Made by a program: the position numbers and the translations under genes
Shown here: positions 52,212 to 58,326 of the stretch, one piece after another
Numbering within the stretch: the first letter of the stretch is position 1
How the letters are laid out: each line of letters starts with the position of its first letter
Assembly: GCF_003544855.1 (NCBI RefSeq)
Contig: NZ_CP032101.1
Coordinates: forward strand, 2,418,001 to 2,482,000
Origin: Malaciobacter marinus
Lineage (GTDB): Bacteria; Campylobacterota; Campylobacteria; Campylobacterales; Arcobacteraceae
Length of the DNA: 64,000 bases
Reading direction: 5' to 3'
Notes under the pieces: model-generated
The model's input: only the letters and a program-made list of their open reading frames with translations
The model's database searches: none
Told to the model about the DNA's origin: nothing

Positions 52212-52232
52212 GAAGGATTTAATCCTTCTTAT
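52208..52232. terminator. Bidirectional terminator after the glycosyltransferase
   Basis: Inverted arms ATAAGAAGGATT and AATCCTTCTTAT lie around a central T, practically a 9-10 bp stem with an ATTTAAT-type loop. It separates two convergent genes. Confidence 0.7.
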
Positions 52233-53013
52233 TCCACGAAATAAGTGCCCACTGTACATAGTCTTGTTCTTGTTTTTTTGTTAAATCTAATGAATCATAG
52301 TGTTGTTCTAAACGTTTTATCTCTTCGTCGTTTAAAGAATCTAAACTCCAAGAAATAGAATCAACAAACTTCTGTTTTGATTTATAAATAGTATTTCTTC
52401 CCTCACTATCAATAAAGTTAACTTCTGCTTTAATTCCTAGTGAATACAAAATATTTACCACATAAATATAATCAGGTTTTTTTATAATATCTTTGTTTAA
52501 TACATCTAAGATTTCATCACTTACAAAAGAACCACCTTTTTTATATGAAATAACAACTTTTTTATTTGCTTTGTCATTTAATTTTATCAAAGCTTCTTTC
52601 ATATCTTTTACTTCCATTGATCTTGAAGCAATAACTAAATCTGCATTTGGAACATCACTCCAATCATCATACCAAGACTTATTGATTGTTTTAATATTTG
52701 TTATATCATTATTTTTTGCATTTTCATTTAATAGTTCTAACATCTTTGTTGAATAGTCTAAACTATAAACTTTTTTTAATTTTGGTGCTAATTTTAATGA
52801 TAGATTTCCAACTCCACATCCCACATCTAAAACTGTCTCAATTTCTTGTAAGTCTAATCTTTGAATAAATTGTTCATTATATACTGATTTGTGAACTCTT
52901 TGATTCATAGAACTAGCTTTTTCATCCCAAGCCTCTTTTGCTTTTGGTTTAAAAGTTGTAAGCTCTTTTTGTTTTTTATATAACTCATTGAAATCTATAT
53001 CTTCATACTTCAC
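52219..53013 (-). CDS. Class I SAM-dependent methyltransferase
   Basis: This 264-residue protein has SAM-binding motif I VLDVGCGVGNLSLKLAP (near 78), motif II-like VYSLDYSTKMLELL and NADLVIASRSME. About 70 residues precede the core. It follows the BASS transporter gene by nine bases on the same strand, so it may be co-transcribed. The target is unknown. Confidence 0.82.
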   Translation of the reverse strand: MKYEDIDFNELYKKQKELTTFKPKAKEAWDEKASSMNQRVHKSVYNEQFIQRLDLQEIETVLDVGCGVGNLSLKLAPKLKKVYSLDYSTKMLELLNENAKNNDITNIKTINKSWYDDWSDVPNADLVIASRSMEVKDMKEALIKLNDKANKKVVISYKKGGSFVSDEILDVLNKDIIKKPDYIYVVNILYSLGIKAEVNFIDSEGRNTIYKSKQKFVDSISWSLDSLNDEEIKRLEQHYDSLDLTKKQEQDYVQWALISWNKKD

Positions 53014-53022
53014 GAAAAATCC

Positions 53023-53934
53023 TTATTGTGCTTTTTTTGACCAATATCCTGCAATAATTGAACCTGAGATATTATGCCAAATACTAAATATAGCTCCTGG
53101 TAAAGCACTTAATGGTGTAAAGTACTTTGTAGCAAGAGCAACAGCTAAACCTGAGTTTTGCATACCAACTTCAATTGCAACTGTTTTGCATACTTTATGC
53201 TCATATCCTAAAAGTTTTGAAATATAGTATCCTCCAGAAAGTCCAATTAAATTATGTAAAATTATTCCAACAAACATTGAAATTGCAATACTACTTATTC
53301 TTTCTTGATTTAAACCAATTACAATTGCAATTATAAAAATAATAGAACCTATTGATAAAAGTGCAAATAATTCTTCTCTTTTTGCAATATGTTTATGAAA
53401 AAAATGATTTAACACAAGACCTAAAAGTACAGGTAAAAGAACTATCTTCATAGTACTTAAAAGCATGCTAAATACTGGTACAGGTACAGTTTGTCCCACA
53501 TAAAGTAGTGTCAAATATGGAGTTATTACAATTGATAAAAGTGTTGAAACTACTGTCATTGTTATAGATAAAGCTACATCAGCTTTTGCTAAAAAAGCAA
53601 TTACATTTGAAGCTGTTCCACCTGAAACGGCACCAACTAAAATCATTCCTACTAATAACTCTGTAGAAAAATTCAATAACCTTGAAATAACAAAAGCAGC
53701 CAAAGGCATAAGCAAAAACTGTAAAAGTATAGTAATTGCAATTATTTTTGGTTTTGTTAAAACTCTTTTAAAATCCTCAACCTTTAAAGTAATACCCATA
53801 CAAAACATAATAAAAACTAAAAGTGGAATAATCCAACTTTTAAAACCAACTACAGCCTCAGGCTGAAAATATGCAAAAATTGATACTAAAATTGCCCATA
53901 AAGGAAATAATATTGAAATTTTTTTAATCATCAT
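53023..53934 (-). CDS. Bile acid:sodium symporter (BASS)-family transporter
   Basis: This 303-residue protein has about nine to ten membrane helices. MFCMGITLKVEDFKRV near 44, VGAVSGGTASNVIAFLAKADVALS near 100-123 and EVGMQNSGLAVALA near 251 are BASS-family signatures including the sodium-site crossover region. Bacterial members often transport organic anions or pantoate rather than bile acids. Two adjacent ATG codons are possible starts. The substrate is unknown. Confidence 0.85.
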   Translation of the reverse strand: MMIKKISILFPLWAILVSIFAYFQPEAVVGFKSWIIPLLVFIMFCMGITLKVEDFKRVLTKPKIIAITILLQFLLMPLAAFVISRLLNFSTELLVGMILVGAVSGGTASNVIAFLAKADVALSITMTVVSTLLSIVITPYLTLLYVGQTVPVPVFSMLLSTMKIVLLPVLLGLVLNHFFHKHIAKREELFALLSIGSIIFIIAIVIGLNQERISSIAISMFVGIILHNLIGLSGGYYISKLLGYEHKVCKTVAIEVGMQNSGLAVALATKYFTPLSALPGAIFSIWHNISGSIIAGYWSKKAQ

Positions 53935-53996: not shown

Positions 53997-54545
53997 TTAT
54001 TCTTCTTTTATATACTCTTTTACGCTAATTACTTGTGAAAAAATAGTTTTTAATGCTGACATATAAGAGTTATGAACTGTTTTTGCAGGAATTTTCTCAC
54101 CTAAAAACTCTAAATCTTTTGTAGCACAAGCATCACTTAAAACTGTGCATTTATAAGATAAATCAAAAGCTGCTCTTGTTGTAGAATCAATACACATATG
54201 ACTCATCATACCACAAATAACCAACTCTTTTATATCTTTTTTTTCAAGTTCTTCTTGTAGTTTTGTTTTTAAAAAACTATTTGGAAAATTTTTCTTTATT
54301 ACAATCTCACTTGATAAAGGAGCAACATTTTCATGTATATTTACTCCTTTTGTATCACAAACAAAAAAAGTTGCATCTTTTTTTGTATTTATATGTTGAA
54401 TGTGAAAAACTGGTAATTTATTTTTTCTAAAGTGCGTTAAAATCTCTTTTGCTTTTAAACTAGCTTCATTAGAGTTCACTAATGGATTTTTTCCTTTTTC
54501 AAAATAATCATTTTGAATATCTATAATTAATAATGCTTTATTCAT
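53997..54545 (-). CDS. Isochorismatase-family cysteine hydrolase
   Basis: This 182-residue hydrolase has the D-K-C triad: D9 (LLIIDIQNDYF), K85 (IVIKKNFPNSF) and C118 (CGMMSHMCIDST). These residues define the isochorismatase/nicotinamidase/YcaC superfamily. It overlaps the upstream EamA gene by 8 nt, so it belongs to the operon under TetR control. Family hydrolases act on amides or N-carbamoyl compounds; the substrate is unknown. Confidence 0.88.
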   Translation of the reverse strand: MNKALLIIDIQNDYFEKGKNPLVNSNEASLKAKEILTHFRKNKLPVFHIQHINTKKDATFFVCDTKGVNIHENVAPLSSEIVIKKNFPNSFLKTKLQEELEKKDIKELVICGMMSHMCIDSTTRAAFDLSYKCTVLSDACATKDLEFLGEKIPAKTVHNSYMSALKTIFSQVISVKEYIKEE

Positions 54546-55413
54546 AAATTTTCCTTTTATTGATTAAAATTATTCCTATTATTATTGTAATAATTCCTAT
54601 AATTTGATTAGCTTCTATTTTTTCTTCTAATAAGAAAAAAGAAACAACAACTGCACTTACTGGCACTAAATAAAAAATCGATGAAACTTTTGAAATTTCA
54701 CCATTCTTTATCATTACATATAAAAGTGACAAGGCACCAATACTAACCCCCACTGTCATATATAATAAAGCAATAGTAAAATCTAAATTCCAATTAATAT
54801 GACTATCTTCGTAAAGTAAAAATGGTATTACTAAAATAGTTGAACTTAAAGTTTGTATTGTACCACCTGAGTAAAGGTTCATATGAGAACAATACTTTTT
54901 TTGATATAAACTTCCAATACTCAAACCCATTAAAGAAACAAATGACCAAAACAATCCAAGCAAAGTTGTTGAAGAAAAATCAATTTTTGTATATACAACA
55001 AATCCAACCCCAACAAAACCTATAATCAAACCCAAGCAAACTTTTTTATTTACATCTTCATCTAAAAGTTTTAACGCCAAAAAAGTTACTATTATTGGTT
55101 GTAAAGCTATTATTAAGGCATTTGTAGCACCAGAGATTCCATAACTAATAGATAAGAATCCTCCTATTGAAAATATTCCAACTGTCAAACTACCTGCAAA
55201 TGCAATTTGAAAAAACTCTTTTTTTGTTTTTGGAAAAGGTATTTTAAAAACAATAGTAATCAAAAATAATATACAAAAAGCAATAAAAAATCGCAATTCT
55301 AAAAAAGCCATTGCAGATGAATTTTTTAAGCCATATTCACAAAAGATAAAACCACTTCCATATAAAAACATAAAGAAAAATGGCAAAATTGATCTTTTTA
55401 TATAAAAATACAT
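54538..55413 (-). CDS. EamA/DMT-family transporter, copy 2
   Basis: This 291-residue protein has ten predicted membrane helices in two EamA repeats. It is clearly a paralogue of the next gene upstream: both share SSAMAFLELR, LYQKKYCS-MNL-GG-IQT and the C-terminal VSSxFYLxPVxxVxVxxFxL. Drug/metabolite transporters of this family export amino acids or toxic compounds. It starts two bases after its paralogue ends and overlaps the hydrolase gene, so all three are co-transcribed. Confidence 0.85.
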   Translation of the reverse strand: MYFYIKRSILPFFFMFLYGSGFIFCEYGLKNSSAMAFLELRFFIAFCILFLITIVFKIPFPKTKKEFFQIAFAGSLTVGIFSIGGFLSISYGISGATNALIIALQPIIVTFLALKLLDEDVNKKVCLGLIIGFVGVGFVVYTKIDFSSTTLLGLFWSFVSLMGLSIGSLYQKKYCSHMNLYSGGTIQTLSSTILVIPFLLYEDSHINWNLDFTIALLYMTVGVSIGALSLLYVMIKNGEISKVSSIFYLVPVSAVVVSFFLLEEKIEANQIIGIITIIIGIILINKRKIYE

Positions 55414-55415
55414 AA

Positions 55416-56309
55416 TTAAGCTTTCTTTATTACAAGTTTTTTAGAATAATTTTTGTTTATTAATCCCATTGAAATAAGAACAATAATAATTCCTATAAAT
55501 ACATTTGACTCTATTTTATTATCTAAAACAAAATAAGCTACAAGAACTGAAACTACTGGTAATAAATAAAATAATGAAGATACTTTTGATACTTCACCAT
55601 GTCTAATCATATAATATAACAAAGACATAACTCCAATACTAGCAATCACAGACATATAAAATAAAGCAATTATAAATTCTCCATTAAATGAAACCCTTAT
55701 ATCTTCAAAATATAATAAAGGCAATACAACAATTGCAGAAACAAAAGTCTGAATAACTCCACCTGTAATCAAATTCATATTTGAGCAATATTTTTTTTGA
55801 TAAAGACTTCCAAAACTCATACCTAGTAATCCTAATACAGCAAATAAAAAACCAATTAATTCGTTTTTGTTAATTTCACTATCAAATCCCAATACAAGAA
55901 TTACTCCAACTAATCCAAATAATAATCCAAACCATGCTTTAATACTTACAGATTCACCTAAAAATCTCATTGCAAGAAATGAAACAACAATAGGCTGTAA
56001 AGAGATAATCAATAAACAAAAAGCAGGTGATAAGCCATAATCAATTGAATTAAAACATGCAATAGAAAAAACTCCTACAGATAAGATTCCAGCAATACCA
56101 ATATGAAATATTTCGATTAAGCTATTTGGAAATTTTAATTTAAATACAAATACAACAAATAGCAATACAATAAATGCAAATAAATATCTCAACTCTAAAA
56201 AAGCCATACTACTTGCATAAGTTAAACCCATTTGAATAAATACAAAACCAGCACCAGAAAGAGTAATAAAAGCTAGTGGTACTATAAAAGATTTTAATTT
56301 TAAAAACAT
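55416..56309 (-). CDS. EamA/DMT-family transporter, copy 1
   Basis: This 297-residue DMT transporter has ten predicted helices. It is the first gene after the TetR-type operators and its ribosome-binding site (AAGGAG, 56314-56319 read on the minus strand) touches operator 1. It is a tandem duplicate of the gene that follows. A lysine-rich tail ends the protein. Expression is likely repressed by the TetR-family protein encoded upstream. The exported compound is unknown. Confidence 0.85.
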   Translation of the reverse strand: MFLKLKSFIVPLAFITLSGAGFVFIQMGLTYASSMAFLELRYLFAFIVLLFVVFVFKLKFPNSLIEIFHIGIAGILSVGVFSIACFNSIDYGLSPAFCLLIISLQPIVVSFLAMRFLGESVSIKAWFGLLFGLVGVILVLGFDSEINKNELIGFLFAVLGLLGMSFGSLYQKKYCSNMNLITGGVIQTFVSAIVVLPLLYFEDIRVSFNGEFIIALFYMSVIASIGVMSLLYYMIRHGEVSKVSSLFYLLPVVSVLVAYFVLDNKIESNVFIGIIIVLISMGLINKNYSKKLVIKKA

Positions 56310-56317
56310 TTTTCTCC

Positions 56318-56333
56318 TTGACTATTTAGTCAA
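56318..56333. promoter_or_regulatory. TetR-type operator 1
   Basis: TTGACTA-TT-TAGTCAA is a perfect inverted repeat with 7-base arms. It lies over the expected transcript start to ribosome-binding-site region of the EamA gene, about 35 bases from operator 2. Confidence 0.75.
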
Positions 56334-56338
56334 ATAAA

Positions 56339-56368
56339 AGTATAGCAAAGTCTTGACTGATTAGTCAA
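56339..56368 (-). promoter_or_regulatory. Promoter of the EamA-EamA-hydrolase operon
   Basis: Read on the minus strand, TTGACT (-35, 56363-56368) is followed after 18 bases by TATACT (-10, 56339-56344). The -35 box is inside operator 2. Confidence 0.75.
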
Positions 56369-56370
56369 GA
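56351..56370. promoter_or_regulatory. TetR-type operator 2
   Basis: TCTTGACT-N4-AGTCAAGA is a perfect inverted repeat with 8-base arms, sharing the TTGACT/AGTCAA half-sites of operator 1. It covers the -35 box. Confidence 0.78.
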
Positions 56371-56380
56371 TTTTTAAAAT

Positions 56381-56950
56381 TTATTTTTTAAGTGTGTTTA
56401 AAAAAAGTTCTAGTTGAGAAATACAAGTTGTAAAACAACTTGCATCTTGAGACTTCTTTGCAGTGCCTATACACCCTTCAATTGAAGCTACTATATACAT
56501 AGAGAGTGCTTTTGTGTCATTGTGAGAGATTTCATTTTTTGCTATTGCTTTATCTAATACTTTTTCAAAAATATTTTCAAATTTTTTATAAACAATCTCT
56601 AAAGCTACTTTAAAATCCTTGTCAATAGGAGATAATTCTTGCATAAGATTATTTAGTTTACATCCAGATGTAAAATCAAAGTTATCTCTTTTTTTTATCA
56701 TCTGCATCATCTCATCACAGATATTTTCTTCATAATCTAATAATACACAATACTTATCATCAATATAAGCATTTACTTTTTCATTTATAACAGCAAGAGC
56801 TAACTCTTTTTTAGACTTAAAAAAGTGATACATACTTCCTTTGTTCATATTTGCTTTTTTTAAAATCTTATCAACAGAAGTTGCAGAGTAGCCATTATGA
56901 TATATCTCATCAAAGGCTACTGTTAGAAGTTTTTCTCTTGTGGTATTCAT
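56381..56950 (-). CDS. TetR/AcrR-family repressor
   Basis: This 189-residue regulator has an N-terminal TetR helix-turn-helix (about 4-50; AFDEIYHNGYSATSVDKILKKA and KGSMYHFFKSKKELA). The C-terminal ligand domain is of the common type containing several cysteines near the end (DASCFTTCISQ). Two matching palindromes lie directly downstream of its stop, in front of the EamA operon, which is the obvious target. The gene itself follows folA by nine bases and so is probably expressed constitutively with recQ-thyA-folA. Confidence 0.9.
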   Translation of the reverse strand: MNTTREKLLTVAFDEIYHNGYSATSVDKILKKANMNKGSMYHFFKSKKELALAVINEKVNAYIDDKYCVLLDYEENICDEMMQMIKKRDNFDFTSGCKLNNLMQELSPIDKDFKVALEIVYKKFENIFEKVLDKAIAKNEISHNDTKALSMYIVASIEGCIGTAKKSQDASCFTTCISQLELFLNTLKK

Positions 56951-56959
56951 ACTAAATTC

Positions 56960-57463
56960 TTAATCTTTTTTTGTATAGACTTTAAAACTCCAAGCTGGGC
57001 TTTTAATTCTATCTTCTTCTAAAATAGCTTCATAATCTTTTTGCTCAATTAAATCCCAAGAAGAAAAATCAATCTCTTTAAGATAAGCATCTGCTTTACC
57101 TTCAAAGTCAACCTCGCTTAAATACATTTTATCAACGTAAGGAAATAGTGTTTCATAGATATTTGCTCCACCTATTATAAAAAGTTCTTCTTCACCATTT
57201 GCTCTTGCAAAATCAAAAGCATCTTGAACTTCACTAAAAGCATGTACACCCTCATGGCTAAAGCCAGTTTTACTTAATACTAATGAAGTTCTATTTGGAA
57301 GAGGTTTTCCAATACTTTCAAAAGTTTTTCTTCCCATTAAAAGATGATGTCCTGAAGTAATCTTTTTAAAGTTTTTAAAATCCTCTGAGATATGCCAAAG
57401 CATTTTATTGTCTAAACCAATCTCCCAATTTTTACCATATGCAACTATCATTGAAATTTTCAT
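56960..57463 (-). CDS. folA: Dihydrofolate reductase
   Basis: This 167-residue enzyme reduces dihydrofolate with NADPH. MIVAYGKNWEIGLDNKMLWHISEDFKNF (N-terminal, split here) holds the active-site W-x-x-x-x-D/E region; HLLMGRKTFESIGKPLPNR and ELFIIGGANIYE are standard DHFR segments. It starts on the last base of thyA (TAATG), pairing the two steps that regenerate tetrahydrofolate after dTMP synthesis. Confidence 0.95.
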   Translation of the reverse strand: MKISMIVAYGKNWEIGLDNKMLWHISEDFKNFKKITSGHHLLMGRKTFESIGKPLPNRTSLVLSKTGFSHEGVHAFSEVQDAFDFARANGEEELFIIGGANIYETLFPYVDKMYLSEVDFEGKADAYLKEIDFSSWDLIEQKDYEAILEEDRIKSPAWSFKVYTKKD

Positions 57464-58326
57464 TATACTGCCATCTCCCCTTTAATTGCTTCATGACACT
57501 TGTAATTTACAAGTTCAAAATCACTCATTTTAAAATCATTTATATTTTCTATATCTTTATTTATTTTCATTGTTGGTTTTTCATATGGCGTTCTTGTAAG
57601 TTGTAGTTTTACTTGTTCCATATGATTTGAATAAATATGTACATCACCAAAAGTATGTACAAAATCCCCTACTTCTAACTTACAAACTTGAGCTATCATC
57701 ATAGTTAAAAGTGCATATGAAGCGATATTAAAAGGAACACCTAAAAATACATCTGCACTTCTTTGATATAACTGACAAGATAGTTTATTATTAGCTACAT
57801 AAAACTGAAAAAAAGTATGGCAAGGTGGTAATGCCATATTCTCAATTTCTGCTGCATTCCATGCATTTAAAATGATTCTTCTACTATCTGGGTTTGTTTT
57901 AATTTGATTAATTACATCTGCAAGTTGATCAACTTTTTTACCATTTGCACCTTCCCAACTTCTCCATTGACTTCCGTAAACTGGGCCTAACTCTTTTATG
58001 GTATCAGTATTTATATAACCTAAATCTTTACCTTGTTTATTGGCATTTGCAGTCCATACTGTTTTTTTATCTATTAGATTTTCTCTTTTGTCATCAAAAT
58101 GAATTTCTGCAAGTCTTCTTTCATCTGTACTTCCTTCAATAAACCATAAAAGCTCACTAATAATTGCTTTTAAATGTGTCTTTTTTGTAGTAACTAAAGG
58201 AAAGCCTTCACTTAAATCAAATCTCATTTGATATCCAAAAACAGAACTTGTACCAGTTCCAGTTCTATCTTCTTTTTTTATTCCATTATCTAAAATATGT
58301 TGTAATAAATCTAAATACTGTTTCAA
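57463..58326 (-). CDS. thyA: Thymidylate synthase (ThyA type)
   Basis: This 287-residue enzyme methylates dUMP to dTMP using methylene-tetrahydrofolate. The catalytic cysteine is C169 in [23 protein letters not shown] near 21 and [21 protein letters not shown] are ThyA signatures. Many Campylobacterota, such as C. jejuni and Helicobacter, use the flavin enzyme ThyX instead, so ThyA is informative for lineage. It overlaps recQ by 4 nt and folA by 1 nt. Confidence 0.95.

Follow-up and report, generated by a model that had tools for sequence, protein, structure and literature searches.

The acrylate-responsive TetR repressor AcuR of Rhodobacter sphaeroides controls its own operon from a single operator ahead of acuR, and this operator, TAATAGAC-n6-GTCTATTA, overlaps the promoter and is backed by mutations (excerpts of PMC3017554). 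In Escherichia coli, NemR is a sensor of electrophiles and HOCl, with Cys106 and Lys175 given as the pair for HOCl sensing (excerpts of PMC7464077). In Bacillus subtilis, the qdoI promoter carries two operators of QdoR (YxaF), two boxes being needed to raise repression (excerpts of PMC8481877).

The TetR protein studied here is encoded in the window, by which is meant the whole 64,000-nucleotide stretch of DNA that was analysed. Its best NCBIfam match is AcuR, at 94.2 bits, which is under the cut-off of 247 for the AcuR equivalog model (NF051457). A GAC-N6-GTC core is common to the window sites and the AcuR operator as excerpted (PMC3017554), but in the window no AcuR-like operator precedes the repressor's own gene: the two sites, the sole close matches in the genome, lie behind tetR. 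The likeness to NemR is one of fold (TM 0.84 to 4yze, at 22% identity); neither nemA nor gloA, the genes that NemR controls, has a counterpart among the eight neighbouring proteins scanned, and, unlike in the NemR setting, the neighbours of tetR are not named as reductase or glyoxalase. The structure model (mean pLDDT 91.5) also resembles PA2196 (TM 0.85), 3qbm (0.85) and 3bru (0.76), and since many TetR proteins stand at similar scores among the best 50 matches, no single structural relative stands out. With QdoR and LmrA the protein has in common the C-terminal domain family PF21993, together with a match to 1sgm. In the QdoR system, however, the regulator's own gene carries an operator too according to the same excerpts (PMC8481877), whereas none was seen before the window tetR, and the flavonoid targets differ. 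Among the papers listed by a title-level literature search none bears by title on this TetR, and the 12 places viewed, out of 13 matches in PMC6682613, all hold words such as tetrathionate and no TetR regulator. Devices of this kind are known (AcuR/NemR/YxaF-like TetR); what is unusual is that the cargo changes while the repressor and the operator set are retained.

Twin palindromes between tetR and eamA1

On the minus strand, tetR is separated from the transporter gene eamA1 by a 71-bp gap (gene-sense letters ...AAATCTTGACTAATCAGTCAAGACTTTGCTATACTTTTATTTGACTAAATAGTCAAGGAGAAAAATG) that contains both palindromes (Table 1). The preliminary description had placed two matching palindromes here, centred 35 bases apart, one over the -35 box and the other between the start of transcription and the ribosome-binding site, and both the sites and this arrangement are borne out by the sequence and the predicted promoter. 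The centres, at 56325.5 and 56360.5, are 35 bp apart; the -35 box is contained in operator 1, and operator 2 begins 5 nt past the -10 box and extends from about the start site into AAGGAG. Judged by consensus match alone, the sequence ahead of eamA1 is promoter-like, with an 18-nt spacer and 10 of 12 consensus positions, in a region where such matches show no excess (21, vs 28.6 in shuffles). Transcription would begin near 56332, within operator 2.

Table 1. Features of the tetR-eamA1 gap and of the surrounding genes (window coordinates)
Feature	Position	Strand	Basis
Operator 1 (putative), TCTTGACT-N4-AGTCAAGA; letters TCTTGACTGATTAGTCAAGA	56351..56370 (core 56353-56368)	.	Sequence and matching sites in relatives
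Operator 2 (putative), TTGACTA-N2-TAGTCAA; letters TTGACTATTTAGTCAA	56318..56333	.	Sequence and matching sites in relatives
Predicted -35, TTGACT	56363..56368	-	Consensus match
Predicted -10, TATACT, TGC just before	56339..56344	-	Consensus match
Shine-Dalgarno-like AAGGAG of eamA1, first two bases within operator 2	56314..56319	-	Sequence
thyA, thymidylate synthase	57463..58326	-	PF00303, 390.8 bits
folA, dihydrofolate reductase	56960..57463	-	PF00186, 162.6 bits
tetR, 189-aa TetR-family regulator, LmrA/YxaF-like C-terminal domain	56381..56950	-	Domain matches
eamA1, EamA-family transporter	55416..56309	-	PF00892, 104.9 bits
eamA2, EamA-family transporter	54538..55413	-	PF00892, 110 bits
Isochorismatase-family hydrolase	53997..54545	-	PF00857, 125.4 bits
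SBF transporter close to PanS	53023..53934	-	PF01758, 146.7 bits
Methyltransferase	52219..53013	-	PF13847, 46 bits

The two sites are rare. With up to one mismatch, TTGACTNNNNAGTCAA has two matches in the window, both exact and both in this gap; 100 shuffles of the window gave a mean of 0.29, with two or more in 3 of them. In the whole 2,917,098-bp genome TTGACTANNTAGTCAA occurs at zero or one mismatch at just these two places. Ten additional places appear at two mismatches, but a reversed control pattern had 55 genome matches vs 12 for TTGACTANNTAGTCAA (zero to two mismatches), and the two-mismatch sites were therefore dropped as uninformative.

The tetR product belongs to the TetR family by its N-terminal domain (TetR_N, 49.2 bits, cut-off 24) and has an LmrA/YxaF-like C-terminal domain (PF21993, 38 bits, cut-off 27), with PF16925 also above its cut-off (32.6 bits vs 27). 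Both eamA1 and eamA2, whose products are 50% identical, match PF00892 over two stretches, as EamA transporters do. The operon of two exporters and a hydrolase that had been proposed is indeed present and is followed by two further genes in the same direction, for an SBF transporter (361.5 bits against the PanS model, under its cut-off of 400) and a methyltransferase, which may be co-transcribed with it. Upstream, recQ (named from sequence), thyA and folA abut or overlap, and folA ends 9 bp ahead of tetR. As the genome-wide search at zero or one mismatch also found no matching operator in front of tetR, the repressor is probably made together with recQ-thyA-folA and not self-controlled.

Linkage of the repressor gene to the paired sites

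The comparison covered 150 genomes, including the window's own, of which 111 had some match to the window TetR; 60 loci were compared, 40 of them close (L045-L084, 51-100% identity) and 20 distant (34-41%). An operator pair lies directly behind tetR in 30 of the 40 close loci. Two or more operators of the TTGACY type are found there in 28 (the first site of L054 with two mismatches), and at L082 and L083 the pair is a variant one with a spacing of 32 bp. Three others (L060, L065, L068) have TGGACT-type pairs ahead of a nearby permease gene (c42, Mem_trans), four (L062, L064, L066, L076) have a single site, and in three (L072, L081, L084) no operator site was found though the TetR is 54-57% identical. 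The paired-site pattern matches 34 of the 150 genomes and its reversed control none. The pattern yields 48 distinct pairs. A TetR-family match is at most 150 bp away from 45 of them, distant-branch TetRs included (e.g. G031, G079, G109 and G113); two of the other three belong to a second, triple-operator cassette of G082, about 1 kb from a TetR, and the third (G078, contig 143) precedes a frame that starts like an EamA protein.

Because relatives keep both palindromes next to the same repressor gene, these are very probably the operators of the adjacent TetR, as had been claimed for the TetR encoded directly upstream. Several distant TetRs (34-41% identity) were also seen beside pairs (L085-L104, and pairs in G031, G047, G079, G109, G113 and G139), with other central bases and placed either ahead of or behind the gene. 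In L048 (G034), the tetR frame is broken by one TGA, and both operators are kept, 35 bp apart.

The upstream side of tetR varies. A same-strand gene ends at most 25 bp ahead of it in 30 of the 40 close loci, the gene just upstream being c2 in 14, the LysE-type c11 in eight, folA (c6) in six and c49 in two. The c2 product (325 aa; L007:521-1498) has no Pfam or NCBIfam match, and c2 often adjoins a gene of the isocitrate-lyase/PEP-mutase family (c1).

Other readings of the palindromes fare poorly against these data. It is very improbable that they are sites of another regulator, e.g. of CRP/FNR type, next to a TetR gene by coincidence: the half-site TTGA...TCAA does recall that of FNR, but in an FNR site TTGA and TCAA are 6 bases apart, against 8 here, and the nearness of 45 of 48 pairs to a TetR of the same family would be left to chance. 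Just as little likelihood attaches to a role as RNA, the first palindrome being the terminator of tetR and the second a 5' hairpin of the eamA1 messenger. Operator 1 does score as terminator-like, with 8 pairs, and operator 2 folds in the leader at -5.3 kcal/mol; yet the stem of this would-be terminator counts 3 G-C pairs and lacks a long T run after it, such matches are at chance level (1 found vs 1.1 in shuffles), and pairs also precede genes without tetR in front (c42 in L060, L065 and L068; the EamA gene of G078 contig 143), although a hairpin role alongside operator function is possible. The least probable reading, to which hardly any weight is given, is a uracil/thymine sensor like RutR tied to the adjacent thyA: the RutR site, TTGACCANNTGGTCAA, is nearly identical to the window sites and the hydrolase is weakly RutB-like (45.6 bits, cut-off 378), but the TetR reaches 22.8 bits against the RutR equivalog TIGR03613 (cut-off 368), over residues 2-63 only, and folA is far from being its regular upstream neighbour.

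Under the reading as TetR operators, the spacing of the sites tracks promoter geometry. Across the 28 TTGACY-type loci the first two operators are 35 bp apart in 16 cases, 33 bp in ten, and 36 and 37 bp in one each; the geometry table leaves out L048, with its broken tetR frame, and L054, whose first site is TTAACT, both of which have pairs. A TATACT or TATAGT box with an 18-nt spacer accompanies every one of the fifteen tabulated 35-bp pairs (found by script in 14, by eye in L052). Of the ten 33-bp pairs, L067 has TATTCT and the other nine have TATAAT with a 17-nt spacer. For two of the 28 rows (L052 and L059), where the script gave ties, the -10 box was assigned by eye, with spacers of 18 and 19 nt. 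At these nine TATAAT loci a third operator follows after another 37-40 bp. On a simple reading, the sites may be placed so that each end of the polymerase footprint is covered, and the strongest promoters would have gained a third operator.

The three loci with TGGACT-type pairs ahead of the Mem_trans permease gene encode TetRs with the recognition helix ASKSSMYYFF, vs MNKGSMYHFF or a near variant in most close relatives. This parallel shift of recognition helix and operator base counts in favour of the TetR-operator assignment and lets TetR specificity be examined in a small experiment of nature. Against the assignment stands L060, where a single clear TTGACT-type site precedes the EamA gene next to the altered-helix TetR; the same genome (G036) also encodes a usual-helix TetR (L063), which could act at that site in trans.

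Varied cargo behind the putative operators

The TetR gene and its paired operators stay linked across genera, and cargo genes vary. The next same-strand annotated gene behind tetR encodes an EamA protein (c3) in 14 of the 40 close loci, a tautomerase (c20) in five, and an isochorismatase (c13) or a 2-hydroxyacid dehydrogenase (c8) in two each. In G003, where the TetR is 97% identical, no eamA gene separates the operators from the isochorismatase gene.

None of the nine triple-operator loci has an ORF of 60 aa that starts directly behind the operators. Four of them, plus triple cassettes in G082 and G078, have a Shine-Dalgarno-like sequence and a frame for a hydrophobic peptide of 27-30 aa, giving six copies (G014, G023, G036, G078, G082 and G086). 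The one copy searched had no Pfam or NCBIfam match. Over 23 codons and all pairs of the six copies, differences at codon positions 1, 2 and 3 number 97, 69 and 128, and the codon changes comprise 47 synonymous and 156 non-synonymous ones; we lean towards the short frame coding for a peptide. Loci with the peptide behind triple operators are L061, L063, L073, L075, L071 (about 1.66 kb behind the tetR start) and L110.

The other five triple-operator loci (G054, G062, G070, G073 and G080, of one genus) share a conserved stretch of about 190 nt, with C-rich segments, that opens at the predicted start and closes with a terminator-like hairpin. No reading frame common to all five was seen, and the stretch is apparently non-coding. 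Loci with this stretch behind tetR and triple operators are L069, L070, L074, L077 and L078, and also L105-L109. Scanned with a covariance model built on the 3' part of the stretch, the 150 genomes gave matches in these five only, once each and at this tetR, under stricter filters that may lose weak matches; Rfam gave no match in the 10 loci submitted. Four of 37 candidate pairs changed on both sides, a number reached in 3 of 500 shuffles, in five sequences of one genus whose relatedness alone can give such covariation; this points weakly to a structured RNA.

Altogether, these loci could be versions of one conserved regulatory module, a proposal that we put forward tentatively and with somewhat more doubt than belief: a steadily made NemR/AcuR-like TetR that has remained over long periods beside a promoter bearing two or three like operators, the third where the promoter is nearest consensus, and a swapped cargo of exporters, enzymes, a hydrophobic peptide of 27-30 residues or a structured non-coding RNA. 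If so, some members would be TetR-repressed small-RNA or small-peptide switches, and should the peptide and RNA versions prove genuine, the inducer of one member would hint at what those products respond to. The design of regulator, operator and promoter is readable across many Arcobacteraceae genomes, which offer a natural comparison of like repressors and sites with different cargo.

Proposed repression and inducer

The explanation in which we have good confidence, drawn from the genomic comparison, is that the palindromes are twin operators of the upstream TetR, which would repress the exporter operon until a compound triggers its release. In the uninduced state, a TetR dimer bound to operator 1 would mask the -35 box and a second, on operator 2, would cover the start site; with both occupied, RNA polymerase could not bind or leave the promoter. 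Tight repression through the two operators is plausible on this arrangement. A small or thiol-reactive compound would then free TetR from the DNA and switch on eamA1, eamA2 and the isochorismatase gene, probably with the two genes behind.

Induction by an exported small molecule, as proposed in the preliminary description, is not supported. In relatives, what follows the operators can instead be an apparently non-coding stretch, a short-peptide frame or a gene for a tautomerase or an isochorismatase, and G003 has no eamA gene between the operators and its isochorismatase gene; with cargo so varied, an exported substrate is unlikely as the general inducer. As no more than a first guess, the inducer could be a small reactive compound or an acid. 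In a profile alignment, C97 and K165 of the TetR align with NemR chain residues counted 108 and 177, which correspond to Cys106 and Lys175 given two extra residues at the chain start (own count), and the NemR pair is thus present. The AcuR-like Rhodobacter protein 3bru has C and K at the same positions, which means that the pair is no hallmark of NemR; it gives a weak hint of electrophile or oxidant sensing. Among the 60 relatives, C97 is kept as C in all 60 and K165 as K in 56.
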